Positions 1 to 6,211 of a DNA stretch of 6,211 nt are shown here, piece after piece. The position numbers and the translations under genes were made by a program. The notes under the pieces were generated by a model, which saw only the letters and a program-made list of their open reading frames with translations, did no database searches and had not been told where the DNA came from. How positions within the stretch are numbered: position 1 is the stretch's first letter; each line of letters opens with the position of its first letter. The DNA lies in contig RFHZ01000434.1 in NCBI GenBank assembly GCA_003696125.1, forward strand, positions 1 to 6,211, written 5' to 3'. Origin of the DNA: Nitrospinota bacterium. GTDB taxonomy: Bacteria > Tectomicrobia > Entotheonellia > J063.

Positions 1-261
1 AGGGGGCTCTCCACTCTCGGTGGTACGCAGTTTGTACGATCCGAGGGTGAAATCGCGGGGACGCGGGTCCAGATAGTCGGCCACCGGGCCATTCCCATCC
101 CCTTCCAATCCGTGACAGAACCAGCACCGCCTTTGATAAATCTCTTCTCCCCTGGCCACATTCTCCGGACTCTCCGGGGGCTTTGTCTGGGCCAGGGTCA
201 TCCCTGCCAGGAGCAGGGAGAGGAGGAGAGCGCAACCCCCAAGCCGTGACAAGCGCTTCAT
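1..261 (-). CDS. Secreted monohaem cytochrome c, C-terminus beyond left edge
   Basis: Reading leftward from the ATG at 261 the frame stays open for 87 codons to the window edge, so the gene is partial. Residues 1-24 form a Sec signal peptide (MKRLSR, then a leucine-rich core, likely cleavage after TLA). A CWFCH haem c site lies at residues 46-50, followed by GDGNGP and a PRPRDFT segment, the usual start of small class I cytochromes c found beside oxidase and reductase modules. The axial Met is not in the window. The start is supported by GGAG (270-273) 8 nt upstream. The ATG overlaps the stop of the upstream cytochrome gene as ATGA (258-261), implying translational coupling and the same operon. 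By family it should be a periplasmic electron shuttle; its exact partner, presumably the bd-like protein encoded upstream, is inferred from position only. Confidence 0.9.
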   Translation of the reverse strand, partial: MKRLSRLGGCALLLSLLLAGMTLAQTKPPESPENVARGEEIYQRRCWFCHGLEGDGNGPVADYLDPRPRDFTLGSYKLRTTESGEPP

Positions 262-1055
262 GGTGACTTCTCCGGTTTGCGCGGTTCTACGCCAGCCGTA
301 TCGTACTCGGCCAGGATGATCTTCCAGATCTCTTCGTCGCTGAGTTCCCCTTTCCAGGAGGGCATGGCCGAATCCCAGGGACTCGCCTCAGGGGGCAATC
401 CTATCCCCCCCTCCTTGATTCGCCAGACGAGGTAAGCCTCTACCAGGGTGGCAATGGTACCCGGGTCACGGAAGTTGGCCGGCTTCAACCGGAATCCCCA
501 GCCCATGGGACCATCCCCCCCGGCGGTCGTACCATGACAGGGACGGCAGTTCTTCTGGTAGAGCACCGCCCCCTCCTCCAGCACCTTGCCCTCTTTTATT
601 GTCCCATCCGGATTCCGAAACGGATTGGTCAACCGCTCGAAAGCGCCTGGAATGGTGGGATGCTGGATACGCAGGGCGGTCGGACTCCCTACCGATGGCC
701 TGACCTGCAGGTAGACCAGGCCTCCCACGATCAGAGGCACCACAAGGAGGCAGAGGAGCCGGGCCCCCCTGGCCCATAGCGACCACCTTCCCTCCAGATC
801 CCCTCGCAGCACGGTCTGGAGCGGTCGGGTAAACTCGGCCAGCTTCTCGTCACTCGTCGAGACATAGACCAAAGCCCCGACAATGGCCAGAATCATGAAC
901 ATGGCCATGAGGGTCCTGGGTACAGGGATCCAGCGATCCGAGCCGGTCACGACCATGGTCAGAGCCGGGAATCCATACGCCAGCAGGAGATAGACCAGGA
1001 CCAGGGAGAGGAGGGTAGACCAGAACAGGGGAACTCTCAACCGAACCTGTGCCAT
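258..1055 (-). CDS. Membrane-anchored monohaem cytochrome c (three TM helices plus C-terminal haem domain)
   Basis: This 265-residue protein has three hydrophobic helices (about residues 8-29, 47-65 and 100-118), with a charged cytoplasmic-type segment between helices 2 and 3 (SDEKLAEFTRP). A cytochrome c domain spans about 155-252. The haem motif is CRPCH at 170-174, followed by GDGPMGWGF; the likely sixth ligand is Met231 in SAMPSW, and the final helix is LSDEEIWKII. The start follows GAGGAG (1067-1072 on the complement), which overlaps the stop codon of the upstream gene and sits 11 nt from the ATG. The gene lies 16 bp after the bd-like fusion gene and overlaps the next cytochrome by 4 bp, so all three should be co-transcribed. 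Inferred role: a tethered electron carrier, or a subunit of the same membrane complex. One TM anchor would be enough for tethering; three suggest that it packs against the large partner. Confidence 0.9.
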   Translation of the reverse strand: MAQVRLRVPLFWSTLLSLVLVYLLLAYGFPALTMVVTGSDRWIPVPRTLMAMFMILAIVGALVYVSTSDEKLAEFTRPLQTVLRGDLEGRWSLWARGARLLCLLVVPLIVGGLVYLQVRPSVGSPTALRIQHPTIPGAFERLTNPFRNPDGTIKEGKVLEEGAVLYQKNCRPCHGTTAGGDGPMGWGFRLKPANFRDPGTIATLVEAYLVWRIKEGGIGLPPEASPWDSAMPSWKGELSDEEIWKIILAEYDTAGVEPRKPEKSP

Positions 1056-1071: not shown

Positions 1072-4000
1072 CTACTTCAAGGTCAAAAGAAAGGCCAGCA
1101 GATCGTGCAGATCCTGCACCGTCAACCGCTGGCTAAAGTTGTCCGGCATGGGGGAGCGCTCCTGTTTACCCCGCTCCACCACCACCGCCTTGGCGATCTT
1201 TTGCACCTGCCCCTGGGCATCGACCACCTCGATGGTGGTCTCATCCTCGGCCTTTACCGTTCCGGTGATGACACGACCGTCTTGCAGGGTAAGGGAGGTT
1301 ACGGTAAAGCCGTAGCCTGGAACAACCACCTTACTCGGCTCTAAGATCGATTCCAGGATATACTGGGGAGACTGGATGGCAGCGATCTTGGTCAGTTCAG
1401 GACCGACCATCCCTCCCTGCTCTCCCACCTTATGGCAGACGGCACAACCGGCCGGACCACCCAGATCGAAGAAGAGCCTCTTTCCTCGCTCTGGATCACC
1501 TGACAAGTAGGGTTTCCAGGCCTCGACCACCCGGGTCTCGGTCGTAGGAGTCGTCGCTTTCAGTTGTTGAAAGAAGGGGGAGGCGTCGATCGCCTTCCCA
1601 TCCACCGTACCTCCCTGGCTCTGGAGGTAGAGGACAACGGCCTTGATCTCTTCGGGTTTCAGGGCGATAGGAGGTTTCCAGATCACCGGCATGATGTTGT
1701 TATAGCCCTGGACCACGTAAGCTCCAGGCTCCACCAGCGATTCGAGCAGGTAATCGGTGGCGGTAAAGGGCTTGCCTGTCTGCCCTGCCCGCTCCCTGGC
1801 TCGCTCCACACTCCGCGCACCGATGGGCAGGTGTAGCGGTCCGGTCTCCCCCAGGTTCGGCCCCCGGATGGCGCTCCCCCGGCCACCGATGCTGTGGCAG
1901 GTGTAACAGTTCCCTTTCCCCCAGAAGAGTGCTTCCCCGGCTGCCGGCGTTACCGCCTCACCAGCCACACGACCTCCCGCGCCTCGGGACGCTTCTCCTG
2001 AGATGCGGGTTAAGACCTCCCCCAGGTAGGCAAAGGCCAGGACGACGACAACCGTAAAGATGACAACTCCCAGGAAGGAGCGATGGGTCCCTCCCTGCTC
2101 TGGTGTCGCATTTCCCAATCCTCCCCGGACAGGAAGAGGGGTAGGTGAAGGAGATCTATGCTCCCCCAGCCCACTCAGCCAGAAGACAAAGGCGATGGAG
2201 CCGAGGAAGAGGAGGACGATCCCTCCCACCACCCTGGTCATGTAGGCCATGGTCGGGGTATAGGCTTCGGGAGAGGTATCCTGCATGATCGCATAGACAT
2301 GCCAGTCCTCCCGAAGCCCGGAGCGGATGTACCCCATGAGTCCCATGAGGATCACGACGGTGACACAGAGCAGAACAAGCACATACTGCGAGCGGGCCGG
2401 CATCTTCCCCCATTGAATCCCCCCCACCACCTCTGCCCCTTGAAAGAGGAAGATGTCGATGAAGGTGTTGACCACCAGGCAGGAGATGACCAGCAAAAAC
2501 TGGGTGACAGCGATGTTGCGGAGGAAGGGATTGGCCTTCTCCATGATGACGAACCCATAGATTCCCAGGGCAAAGACGGCACTGGTTACGGTCACGGCAA
2601 AGAGGAGTCCCTGGCCGAGGAGGCCACGGTCACGAAAGGTCAACCAGATGGCCACAAAGATGGTGATGATCTCCAGAATGAGGAGCAGGCCGGGGAAGAG
2701 AAAATAGCGGGCCTTATCCGGGCTCAGCTCCAGAGTTGCCGGGTCCAGGGTGAAGAGGGAGTAGGCATAGGCTCCCAGGAAGAGGAGACACACTCCTCCC
2801 ACCACAAGGAGCACCACCCGGGCCGGGGTTCCCTGTTCGGCAAAGGGACGTGGTCGTCCCTTGTTCGCCCGCCGGTACAGGAGGAAGCTGAAGAAGGTGG
2901 AGAGGATGATGAAGTTCACCACCGCGTTCTTGGCCGACATCAACCCGAGCCACTTCAGCACCGGGTGGTACTGGCCGCCGATGGCGAGCTGCTCGGCAGC
3001 ACTCAGGGGGAGGTTGTGGGGAGTGAGCCAGACGGCAAAGCAGATCAGGAGGATCAGGTTGATATACTTGATGTACTTCAGATAGCGCTCTGCACCGGCT
3101 ATTCGTCCCATACCGATCCAGAGGTAGTAGTTGGCCCCGATGAAGAGGATACCGATGAGGATGGCCTGGATGATGAAGGTCCAGGAGAAGGCTCCCCCCA
3201 TCATGTTGTTTCCCATGACCGGAGAGGCGCTGTAGACCTCGCGTCCCAGATAGTACCCGGCAAAGGGAAGCGGGATGAGGGCAGCGATGGCCACGAAGTT
3301 CCCCACATATCCCATCCAGTCGTAGTGCGCCTTTTCCGTCTCGCTTGTGGCCCCCAGGAACCTGACCGCCGCGTACGCACCGGCGATCAGGCCGCCAAAG
3401 GCGATATTGGCGATAAAGCGGTGAATGGCCAGGGGAATCCAGAGGGGATTGGCCACCGCGGCCCAGGTGCTGCCGAGAAAGGCCCCTGTCTCCTGGTCAA
3501 CACCGGCCGGGCTCATCATGAAGCTGGCCCAGGAATTGGCAATCAGCATCAGCACGGTTCCCCACACATTCAGGAGGATCCCCAAGAAGATATGGAATCC
3601 TTTCCCCTTCTCCTGCAGTCTGTCCCAGGAGTAGTAGTAGAGATAGAGGGTAAAGCCCTCGGCAAAGAAGAGGAGTGCGTACACATAGTAAGATTTATGG
3701 AAGATCTGAGTGAGGTATCCCATGAATTTGGGATAGAGGCCAAAGAGGGTGAAGGCCAACAGCCCTCCTAAGGCTGCCGTGGTGGAGAAGGCGGCCAGGA
3801 GAAGCCTGGTGAACTCCCGTGCCAGGCGGTCGTACTTGGGATCTCCGGTCCGCTTCCCGATGTACTCTACGATGACGGCAAAGAGAGGGACACCTAAGAC
3901 AAAGGCGGCGTACATCAGGTGGAGCTCGGCCACGATCCAGACGACCAGGCGGGGATTCAGGCCGAAAAAGGACCGGTAAGCCTCCCCCCCTTCCTGCGCA

Positions 4001-4110
4001 AAAAGGAGGGAGGGGAAGAGCAGGAGAGAGAGGATGAGGCACCCCTTTCCCCAGTCCAGGCAGCCTCCCCTGCTTTTCGGGATCTCTTGGGATCGTCTTC
4101 TCCGCTTCAT
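1072..4110 (-). CDS. Cytochrome bd oxidase subunit I-like protein fused to two cytochrome c domains
   Basis: This is a 1012-residue protein when read from ATG 4110. Residues 1-38 look like a signal peptide (MKRRRR, hydrophobic core, cleavage near LFAQ). About 15-16 membrane helices follow (about 55-700). The first part resembles CydA: His64 in AELHLMY matches the position of E. coli His19, a WDRL motif lies at 162-165, ANSWASFMMSPAG at 191-203, and His230 in IHRFIAN matches His186. The CydA quinol-loop motif (QPxKLAAxE) is not seen. Two haem c domains follow: CYTCH at 735-739 with candidate ligand Met807 (NIMP), and CAVCH at 889-893 with Met988 (SPMPDN). The second domain fits the Planctomycete/Verrucomicrobium-type haem-binding domain (TIGR02603). 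The frame extends to a TTG at 4206, but that codon abuts GAGG without spacing and lies at the predicted transcription start. The ATG at 4110 gives a proper signal peptide but has a weak Shine-Dalgarno; GTG at 4131, 11 nt after AGAGGTG, is an alternative. It is probably a terminal oxidase or a related membrane redox enzyme accepting electrons from cytochrome c; oxygen reduction is unproven. Confidence 0.88.
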   Translation of the reverse strand: MKRRRRSQEIPKSRGGCLDWGKGCLILSLLLFPSLLFAQEGGEAYRSFFGLNPRLVVWIVAELHLMYAAFVLGVPLFAVIVEYIGKRTGDPKYDRLAREFTRLLLAAFSTTAALGGLLAFTLFGLYPKFMGYLTQIFHKSYYVYALLFFAEGFTLYLYYYSWDRLQEKGKGFHIFLGILLNVWGTVLMLIANSWASFMMSPAGVDQETGAFLGSTWAAVANPLWIPLAIHRFIANIAFGGLIAGAYAAVRFLGATSETEKAHYDWMGYVGNFVAIAALIPLPFAGYYLGREVYSASPVMGNNMMGGAFSWTFIIQAILIGILFIGANYYLWIGMGRIAGAERYLKYIKYINLILLICFAVWLTPHNLPLSAAEQLAIGGQYHPVLKWLGLMSAKNAVVNFIILSTFFSFLLYRRANKGRPRPFAEQGTPARVVLLVVGGVCLLFLGAYAYSLFTLDPATLELSPDKARYFLFPGLLLILEIITIFVAIWLTFRDRGLLGQGLLFAVTVTSAVFALGIYGFVIMEKANPFLRNIAVTQFLLVISCLVVNTFIDIFLFQGAEVVGGIQWGKMPARSQYVLVLLCVTVVILMGLMGYIRSGLREDWHVYAIMQDTSPEAYTPTMAYMTRVVGGIVLLFLGSIAFVFWLSGLGEHRSPSPTPLPVRGGLGNATPEQGGTHRSFLGVVIFTVVVVLAFAYLGEVLTRISGEASRGAGGRVAGEAVTPAAGEALFWGKGNCYTCHSIGGRGSAIRGPNLGETGPLHLPIGARSVERARERAGQTGKPFTATDYLLESLVEPGAYVVQGYNNIMPVIWKPPIALKPEEIKAVVLYLQSQGGTVDGKAIDASPFFQQLKATTPTTETRVVEAWKPYLSGDPERGKRLFFDLGGPAGCAVCHKVGEQGGMVGPELTKIAAIQSPQYILESILEPSKVVVPGYGFTVTSLTLQDGRVITGTVKAEDETTIEVVDAQGQVQKIAKAVVVERGKQERSPMPDNFSQRLTVQDLHDLLAFLLTLK
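2105..2165. repeat. Possible dispersed-repeat remnant inside the bd-like gene
   Basis: The linker between the last two membrane helices reads SPSPTPLPVRGGLGN in the protein. On the coding strand the DNA is a C/T-rich arm (CACCTACCCCTCTTCC) followed by a G-rich arm (GGGGAGGATTGGG). This pattern and its Ser-Pro-rich translation are typical of small dispersed palindromic elements common in high-GC genomes, which occasionally insert in frame into coding sequence. Only one copy is visible, the palindrome is imperfect, and the boundaries are approximate, so this remains an inference. Confidence 0.35.
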
Positions 4111-4726: not shown

Positions 4727-5464
4727 ATGAGATATGTCTTGGTCGGGATCTTACTGTTTATGCTTCCCTGGAACGGGTGGGCTTACAAAGAGGTGGCGGT
4801 CACGAATGGGGCCACCCTCACCGGGAAGGTCCTGTTCCAGGGGACCCCTCCCGCCCCCAAGCAGGTGGTTATCAACAAGAACCCTGAGGTGTGCGGCACC
4901 GGGTACCGGGAGCTGCAGGAGGTCAAGGTCACACCAGAAGGGGGGCTGCAGGAGGTGGTGGTCTTTCTGGAAAAGGTAAAGCAGGGCAAGCCATGGCCTG
5001 CACCTCCTGATAACGGGTACCTGATCGATCAAAAGAACTGCGCGTTTCGTCCTTACCTCCAGGTGGTGCCCAAAAAGGCAAAGCTGGTGATCGTCAACAG
5101 TGATCCGGTCCTCCACAACATCCATACTTATGAGTTGATCAAAAGAGCACGGCGTACCCTGTTTAACTTTGGCCAGCCTACCCAGGGGATGAAGACAACC
5201 AAACGTCTCAAGACGCGCCGGGGAAACGTGGTACGGGTGGAGTGTGATGCGCACAACTTCATGCTGGCCTGGATCTTTGTCGCCGATAACCCGTACTACG
5301 CCGTGGTGGATGAGCAGGGAGAGTTCACCATCACGGACATCCCTCCGGGCACGTACCGGGTGAAGGCCTGGCATCCCTTTCTCGGCTTCCAGAAGGCACA
5401 GAAAGTCACCCTTGCCGCCCAGGGGAAAGCAGAGGTGAACTTTACGTATCAGGCCAAGGAATGA
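4727..5464 (+). CDS. Secreted cupredoxin-like protein with C-terminal carboxypeptidase-regulatory-like domain
   Basis: The 245-residue product begins with a signal peptide (MRYVLVGILLFMLPWNGWA, likely cleaved after Ala19). Residues about 28-185 form a beta-rich, cupredoxin-like region. Candidate type 1 copper ligands are His130 or His133 (DPVLHNIH), Cys173 and His176 (CDAH), and Met179. Residues about 189-240 (YYAVVDEQGEFTITDIPPGTYRVKAWH) are a typical carboxypeptidase-regulatory-like beta sandwich. Proteins of this architecture are often annotated as methylamine utilisation proteins or plastocyanin-like proteins and occur beside cytochromes and MauG-type peroxidases. Two further cysteines (56 and 105) may form a disulphide after export. 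The likely role is periplasmic electron transfer or copper handling; no enzymatic activity is evident. It is the first gene of the rightward unit, under the Fnr-type promoter. Confidence 0.85.
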   Translation: MRYVLVGILLFMLPWNGWAYKEVAVTNGATLTGKVLFQGTPPAPKQVVINKNPEVCGTGYRELQEVKVTPEGGLQEVVVFLEKVKQGKPWPAPPDNGYLIDQKNCAFRPYLQVVPKKAKLVIVNSDPVLHNIHTYELIKRARRTLFNFGQPTQGMKTTKRLKTRRGNVVRVECDAHNFMLAWIFVADNPYYAVVDEQGEFTITDIPPGTYRVKAWHPFLGFQKAQKVTLAAQGKAEVNFTYQAKE

Positions 5465-5591
5465 GACGCATTGCGCTTTCAGCCGTCAGTCGTGATCCCA
5501 GGAGGCCTCATAGGGAGCAACACGGAACACAACCGCCTCCTCAAGAGGAGTGCTGATAGCTGGAAGCCTTCATAAAGGAGGTGAACACGGT
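5465..5591 (+). promoter_or_regulatory. Spacer with strong Shine-Dalgarno before the peroxidase gene
   Basis: This 127-bp gap contains no clear promoter or terminator, so the two plus-strand genes are probably co-transcribed. AGGAGGTGA (5576-5584) is a near-perfect anti-16S match 7 nt before the ATG at 5592. Inverted repeats are present: CTCCTC/GAGGAG (5537-5542 and 5545-5550), and GGAGGC (5501-5506) with GCCTCC (5535-5540). Confidence 0.6.
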
Positions 5592-6211
5592 ATGCAGAAG
5601 AACGGGGTCGTAGCAAACAAGAGATGGACACTGCTCGGACTGGTGGTGGTCCTGCTCCTCTTCCCTCTTCTGGTTTCTGCTGCCAGCAGGTACCCGGCCA
5701 TCGGTCCCCTTCCCCCCCGCAAGGCTCCTGATCCCAAAGCGGTGGAGATGGGGAGACGGCTCTTCTTTGATTCCCGCCTCTCCGGAGACGGGGCGATCCG
5801 GTGTGCAGACTGCCATAACCCCCAGAAGGGATGGGGAGACGGGCAGCCTCTCTCCATGGCTTATCCGGGAACCAGCTATTTCCGGAATGCACCCACCCTG
5901 CTCAATACCGTCTATAAAGACGGCTTCAGCGACGTCGGCTGGGGATGGGATGGAAGGATGGGCGCGAATCTGAACGACGTCATGCGCGATCAGATCACCG
6001 AGACGACCATCATGAACATGGACATGCGGATCATGCACGAGCGCATGAAGCAGGATCCGGTCTACGTGCAGATGTGCCAGGAGGTGTACGGCGGAGAGTG
6101 CAGCTCGGGGAAGGCACGCAAGGCGCTGGTAGCTTTCCTCGAAACCCTCGTCTCCACCGATACGCCGTTCGATAAAGGAACCCTCTCTGCCGAGGCGCAA
6201 AAGGGGAAGGA
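5592..6211 (+). CDS. Dihaem cytochrome c peroxidase / MauG-family protein, truncated by right edge
   Basis: The reading frame is open from ATG 5592 to the window end (206 codons plus two bases), so the C-terminal half is missing. Residues 1-31 form a signal peptide or anchor (a basic start, then a hydrophobic stretch ending in VSAA). The family signature is clear: RLFFDSRLSGDGAIRC, the first haem site CADCH at 71-75, then RNAPTLLNT at 98-106 and WGWDGR at 117-122. The second CxxCH expected in this family should lie beyond the edge, as the last residues (SAEAQKGK) resemble the run-in to it. Family members reduce hydrogen peroxide or oxidise partner proteins in the periplasm, taking electrons from cytochrome c or cupredoxins. 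A methionine-rich stretch (141-152) is unusual. Its position after the cupredoxin-like gene suggests that protein as a donor or substrate; this is inference. Confidence 0.9.
   Translation, partial: MQKNGVVANKRWTLLGLVVVLLLFPLLVSAASRYPAIGPLPPRKAPDPKAVEMGRRLFFDSRLSGDGAIRCADCHNPQKGWGDGQPLSMAYPGTSYFRNAPTLLNTVYKDGFSDVGWGWDGRMGANLNDVMRDQITETTIMNMDMRIMHERMKQDPVYVQMCQEVYGGECSSGKARKALVAFLETLVSTDTPFDKGTLSAEAQKGK

Follow-up and report, generated by a model that had tools for sequence, protein, structure and literature searches.

We analysed a 6211-bp stretch of DNA (the window) that makes up an entire contig, C768 (RFHZ01000434.1), of a draft metagenome-assembled genome of a Nitrospinota bacterium. The draft comprises 4.18 Mb in 990 contigs and is 94.8% complete and 8.0% contaminated. 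The central element of the window is a gene on the minus strand (1072-4110) that is very probably the product of a natural, in-frame gene fusion, joining a cytochrome bd superfamily protein of the bd-like (OR-N) type to its dihaem cytochrome c. The gene is a single uninterrupted frame of 1012 codons, with the following parts.

1072..4110, minus strand: fused gene encoding a CydA-like core of bd-like/OR-N type and a dihaem cytochrome c in 1012 amino acids (single open frame; PF01654, PF00034, TIGR02603)
3997..4110, minus strand: N-terminal signal-peptide-like helix, residues 1-38 (hydrophobic segment 20-38, then FAQEGG)
2146..3993, minus strand: predicted CydA fold, residues 40-655, about 15 transmembrane helices (AlphaFold2; structure match to 7ose_A)
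3217..3951, minus strand: N-terminal CydA part with H64, E151, H173, H230 and Y144 (PF01654; column counts over 91 relatives)
2566..3273, minus strand: insertion of about 5-6 transmembrane helices where the quinol loop (Q-loop) would lie, residues ~280-515, edges approximate (gap in the profile alignment; helix list of the model)
2293..2325, minus strand: motif RSGLREDWHVY, residues 596-606, equivalent of CydA (E)GRQPWxVYG (profile alignment; column counts)
2077..2163, minus strand: fusion linker, residues 650-678 (codon listing against the nearest relative, L008)
1585..1950, minus strand: first c-type haem domain, residues 721-842, CXXCH 735-739, axial Met M807 (PF00034)
1084..1500, minus strand: second c-type haem domain, TIGR02603 type, residues 871-1009, CXXCH 889-893, axial Met M988 (TIGR02603)

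Domain searches identify both parts of the chain. The first-pass annotation, made from the sequence alone, had described a CydA-like region followed by two c-type haem domains in one 1012-residue chain, and this description holds. In a Pfam search of the fused protein, the CydA profile that the annotation had proposed as a check (Cyt_bd_oxida_I, PF01654) matches significantly at residues 54-298 (E 1.6e-25), and Cytochrom_C (PF00034) is found twice (E 5e-16). TIGR02603 from NCBIfam matches residues 871-1009 (E 4.4e-36). Chance is excluded as the source of a 1012-codon frame with such domain matches. The signal-peptide-like helix at the N terminus is missing or highly divergent among relatives. 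Both c-type domains read as complete His/Met haem domains, with the CXXCH motif and axial methionine of class I c-type cytochromes: C735, C738, H739 and M807 of the first, and C889, C892, H893 and M988 of the second, are each present in 54/54 rows.

Residues from about 40 to 655 are predicted to form one CydA fold. The fold work was based on an alignment of 91 relatives over residues 40-660, and the resulting AlphaFold2 model of the core has a mean predicted local distance difference test score (pLDDT) of 89.0 and a predicted template modelling score (pTM) of 0.89. The top ten Foldseek matches to this model are all CydA chains (10/10). VIA-align against CydA of E. coli bd-II (7ose_A) gave Z 35.8 over 351 residues with a root-mean-square deviation of 3.5, and the match extends over model residues 8-611. 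Alternative complex III is the next-best family (Z ~22), and PsrC reaches Z 15.6. A profile-profile alignment of the core with 14 canonical CydA sequences (probability 99.7, E 4.6e-26) covers E. coli CydA 1-508. Because E. coli CydA 1-230 is matched by the N-terminal half and CydA from ~391 on by the final helices, residues 40-655 are read as wholly CydA; within the final helices, RxDWHxYGxMRDTS of the core is paired with canonical GRQPWxVYGxLRT. A second model, of residues 40-1012, used an alignment with eleven rows carrying both parts of the protein and scored lower (pLDDT 80.8, pTM 0.74).

The extra helices replace the quinol loop within CydA, ahead of the final CydA helices, and there is no CydB domain. 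The first-pass annotation had instead let CydA end near residue 430 and continue into a second bundle, either CydB-like or unrelated. This boundary has to be abandoned, as the whole of 40-655 aligns to CydA and the helices in question sit inside that fold, at the Q-loop place. A one-chain CydA-CydB enzyme, with the extra helices as its CydB-like domain, is very improbable. Weak structural matches to CydB chains do occur, as expected since CydA and CydB share a fold, but the CydA match covers the whole chain and is far stronger. Two of the checks that the annotation had suggested go the same way: PF02322, the CydB profile, has no match anywhere in the fused protein at E<=1, and the predicted structure best matches CydA rather than packing as CydB. 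The last helices also bear the CydA motif RxDWHxYG, and a CydB-like second half was rejected on these grounds.

The core keeps much of the canonical haem and proton machinery and lacks the quinol site. Conservation was counted over the 91 relative rows and the 14 canonical rows. The equivalents of H19 (H64, kept in 90/91) and H186 (H230, 91/91) are retained, as are those of E107 (E151) and H126 (H173), both in 90-91/91 relatives, and that of R448 (R600). In canonical bd, histidine ligates haem d, glutamate ligates b595, and histidine and methionine ligate b558 (PMC8951039). Two haem sites in the core, built on H64 and H230, are plausible because these residues are kept; the third site is without its known ligand. 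The quinol residues K252 and E257, present as K and E in 14/14 canonical rows, have no equivalents in the core by profile alignment, and the W441 position is a glycine in bd-like relatives. The annotated picture of a bd-type core with electron-input c haems in one chain can be kept, with the loss of the quinol site added to it. Compared with canonical CydAB, the fused protein has the same fold and the equivalents of H19, E107, H126, H186 and R448, but it is without the Q-loop residues, E445, M393, E99 and an adjoining CydB, and it has gained c haems. We also observed histidines outside the canonical ligand set, invariant at residues 262, 382 and 604 and near-invariant at 365, which could bind further b haems or copper.

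The one-chain layout is a local variant and not the normal state of the bd-like family. We fetched 79 relative loci, and in nearly all of those that hold both the core and the dihaem cytochrome c, the two are separate adjacent genes. The exceptions are the window, a Scalindua contig (L012), and loci whose shortness or fragmentation prevents a verdict. L008, the nearest relative at 82% identity, has two separate genes that overlap by four bases (ATGA). At the aligned place in the window, ACC replaces the second gene's ATG and the genes are not separated by a stop codon; the sole in-frame alternative start ahead of the helix is a TTG at codon 665. The Scalindua fusion likewise has no ATG at its junction. 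The window protein is sister to the unfused L008 (support 100) and L012 is sister to the unfused L010 (support 97), so the two in-frame fusions arose independently. The combination of core and electron-input module in one chain, as suggested in the first-pass annotation, is right for this gene but is not the norm of the family, whose members keep two adjacent genes.

An ordinary two-gene pair joined by a sequencing or assembly error is a quite improbable source of the fusion. The genome is a draft in 990 contigs with 8.0% contamination, and with genes that overlap by 4 bp in L008, one wrong base could join the frames. However, a single-base error is disfavoured because the start codon of the second gene has been lost, with only the TTG at codon 665 remaining in frame, and the Scalindua fusion also lacks this ATG. 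Two further candidates were rejected. The linker, proline-rich and palindrome-like, was considered as a dispersed repeat, but neither a 31-base pattern (3 mismatches) nor a 106-base stretch recurs significantly in the genome; and an apparent third fusion (L046 1397-4636) turned out to be an alternate reading frame across the core gene. A search of a plasmid collection with the protein returned no close relative, just canonical CydA and PVC-type haem fragments.

By its anatomy and neighbourhood, the fused protein is assigned to the bd-like/OR-N family of nitrite oxidoreductase (NXR) clusters of anammox bacteria, Nitrospira and Nitrospina. A conspicuous bd-like oxidase gene set is common to Nitrospina, Nitrospira and Kuenenia (PMC3578206), and the same type of module has been described for bd-like_3/4 of N. 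moscoviensis (PMC6606698). Later papers class such bd-like proteins as OR-N, putatively cytochrome c-oxidising and so far untested (PMC10839748, PMC12342949). In our tree, the fused protein lies in one clade with Nitrospirota and anammox relatives. Its OR-N traits include a CydA-like N-terminal half with the haem-ligand histidines, replacement of the Q-loop by helices with loss of the quinol residues, and a gene cluster with mono- and dihaem cytochrome c, an alternative NxrC and a cupredoxin-like protein. The kinship to bd-like oxidases of Nitrospirota that the annotation had named is borne out by the relatives and the module genes, and no biochemistry for them was found in the open-licence literature.

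The bd-like oxidases of NXR clusters in Nitrospina gracilis, Ca. Kuenenia and Nitrospira resemble the fused protein in the haem-ligand N-terminal half, the helix-replaced Q-loop, ~14 helices, the absence of quinol residues, and neighbours that encode mono- and dihaem cytochromes c, an alternative NxrC and a cupredoxin-like protein. Here, by contrast, a single gene encodes the core and the dihaem cytochrome c, and the adjoining molybdenum enzyme is predicted in silico to be of the iodate-reductase (Idr) type and not NXR. Likeness to the OR-N family (Murali et al. 2021, as covered in PMC10839748 and PMC12342949) extends to the missing quinol site and putative cytochrome c oxidation; published OR-N1/N2 pairs act as CydAA', whereas a single copy was found in the source genome. 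The TO_1 to TO_4 complexes of Ca. Manganitrophaceae (PMC9040806) are likewise multi-gene redox complexes with non-canonical bd-like proteins, and the Troglogloeales loci L014 and L064 are among our relatives. TO_2, however, has MrpD-like subunits, none of which was seen here, and no fusion is reported for TO (PMC9040806). As a separate observation, 22/36 loci with enough downstream sequence (e.g., L029, L030, L031 and L042) encode a paralogue of the bd-like core as well, and this second core has a dihaem cytochrome c of its own. This recurrence suggests a core-core' heterodimer at such loci.

The genes on either side of the fusion match those of the known module.

1..261, minus strand: initial part, truncated at the contig end, of the “alternative NxrC”, a membrane c-type cytochrome that has a haem b domain (PF00034; counterpart in L008)
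258..1055, minus strand: membrane-anchored monohaem cytochrome c, with three hydrophobic helices in relatives (PF13442, E 2.8e-11)
4730..5464, plus strand: secreted cupredoxin-like protein with a carboxypeptidase-regulatory-like domain, divergent neighbour (PF13620, E 9.5e-8)
5550..6211, plus strand: dihaem peroxidase of MauG/CCP (IdrP-like) type, cut by the contig end (PF03150, E 3.4e-34)

The full-length alternative NxrC at the same place in L008 has 528 amino acids, two cytochrome c domains and an EB_dh domain (PF09459, E 5.4e-24; TIGR03477, E 4.8e-29). Homologues in the relative loci number 77 for the monohaem cytochrome, 65 for the EB_dh protein and 53 for the cupredoxin-like protein. The translation of the last contains a copper-type motif, CDAHNFM, and this secreted protein may carry electrons within the module. 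Downstream in L025, an anammox-type locus, lie genes of the NxrC and NxrB types (TIGR03477, TIGR03478). Upstream of the module in L008 (1547-2983) is a 478-amino-acid protein with one CXXCH near its N terminus and no Pfam or NCBIfam match; it has counterparts in L029 and L037 and may be a porin-type cytochrome.

The window probably continues into an Idr-type cluster on another contig of the same genome, C314 (L134 1-3193). This contig opens inside a peroxidase, ~23 residues past the point where the window peroxidase breaks off in L053 numbering (a gap of ~70 bp), and it is this alignment gap that points to adjacency. Its gene order is the peroxidase end, a second peroxidase, a Rieske small subunit (TIGR02694, E 7.3e-37) and the start of a molybdenum large subunit (TIGR02693, E 8.3e-57). 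G+C contents of the window contig and C314 are 58.3 and 58.6%; no exact overlap of at least 12 bases was found between the window end and C314. The predicted neighbour would therein share its two dihaem peroxidases and its Rieske and molybdenum subunits with the idrP1P2BA cluster of Pseudomonas SCT and Denitromonas (PMC8692401).

The association with Idr-type genes recurs among relatives. Arsenite-oxidase-superfamily large-subunit genes lie near the module in 24/37 loci of the same core clade that have >6 kb of upstream sequence, L031 and L042 included. Genes for a Rieske small subunit and for dihaem peroxidases usually go with them. The L031 large subunit shares 50-54% identity with three plasmid homologues, against 26-29% with the arsenite-oxidase group. 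One of these plasmid homologues (Azonexus) stands in the gene order peroxidase-peroxidase-small-large, which is known for iodate reduction (PMC8692401). The surroundings of described idr clusters are reported to be poorly conserved (PMC8692401), and we found no description of a bd-like module beside idr clusters in the open-licence literature; the link is apparently undescribed. Its frequency suggests that the module serves periplasmic molybdenum enzymes in general as an adaptor and is not specific to nitrite oxidation.

We propose that the fused protein is part of a respiratory module, takes in electrons through its c haems and reduces oxygen. Electrons would come from a periplasmic molybdenum enzyme, which is probably the adjoining Idr-type enzyme here and nitrite oxidoreductase in anammox bacteria. 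They would pass through the alternative NxrC, then through the cupredoxin-like protein or the monohaem cytochrome, to the two attached c haems, which would hand them to b-type haems of the core. The core would then reduce oxygen with cytoplasmic protons, as proposed for OR-N enzymes; this step is the less sure one. Entry of electrons through the c haems is likely, and the explanation as a whole stands at about even prospects.

The final acceptor is the weakest part of this proposal. Oxygen is slightly favoured over quinone, at somewhat below an even chance. Membership in the superfamily speaks for oxygen, as do the E107 and H126 equivalents leading toward the H19-ligated haem. Several observations weigh against it. 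The canonical E99 position is a tyrosine in 91/91 relatives (Y144, window 3679-3681). E99 of canonical CydA lies near haem d. The M393 position is L539 in the window protein and variable, mostly leucine, among relatives, and the E445 position is a serine (S597) at an ungapped place, in a helix that has no acidic residue or histidine in the window protein. Since E445 and M393 have no conserved counterpart and E99 is a tyrosine, neither the number of haems nor the oxygen site is certain. In addition, no second bd-like paralogue was found in the source genome. The family is common in genomes of anammox bacteria, which are anaerobes and do not call for an oxygen reductase, and neither does the iodate-reductase-type cluster alongside. 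No family member is known to have been purified or assayed in vitro in the open-licence literature.

The main alternative is a quinone-linked complex that moves electrons between high-potential c haems and the quinone pool. In such a complex, the c haems would be fed by nitrite oxidoreductase or would feed the Idr-type enzyme, with the proton motive force driving or conserving the step. This role was proposed for NXR-linked bd-like proteins by Luecker 2013 (PMC3578206) and Mundinger 2019 (PMC6606698). It accords with the loss of E445, M393 and E99, with the occurrence of the family in genomes of anammox bacteria, where genes of NxrC and NxrB type directly follow, and with the association with Idr-type genes. 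The likeness to quinone-active subunits of alternative complex III (Z 22) and to PsrC (Z 15.6) also fits, but the former is at the level of fold and may hold for canonical CydA too, which makes it weak evidence. Furthermore, all known bd quinol-site residues are missing, no other quinone site was identified, and E107 and H126, the proton-channel residues toward the H19-ligated haem, are retained. The quinone-linked role is a real but lesser possibility. Its broadest form is nearly as probable: a bd scaffold turned cytochrome c-quinone complex, a new kind of complex III and not an oxygen reductase, that would serve different periplasmic molybdenum enzymes (nitrite oxidoreductase, Idr-type) through exchange of the donor or acceptor enzyme alone.

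It is improbable that the core reduces some other small molecule, such as nitric oxide, peroxide or iodine species. The invariant tyrosine at the E99 position and the adjoining dihaem peroxidases and Idr-type genes would suit such a substrate, but these neighbours are separate enzymes and direct evidence is absent. Between oxygen reduction, which we tentatively prefer, and a quinone-linked role, the natural fusion offers an easier test for bd-like proteins. It fixes which cytochrome belongs to the core and provides a single gene for expression. The question matters as, in nitrite oxidisers and in anammox bacteria, energy metabolism ends or branches at bd-like enzymes.

The source genome does not depend on the fused protein for oxygen respiration, because contig C420 carries canonical cydA and cydB side by side, and fragments of haem-copper oxidase subunit I also occur in the genome. 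The cydB on C420 is the only PF02322 gene of the genome. The absence of a CydB gene from the window, pointed out in the first-pass annotation, is thus literally correct, but the window is just a 6.2-kb contig and the genome has the pair elsewhere. On contigs C188 and C749 (L106 and L105), a pentahaem protein accompanies each of two further proteins, an ActB fusion that resembles alternative complex III and an ArrA/PhsA-like enzyme. These genes point to several other respiratory branches in the source genome.

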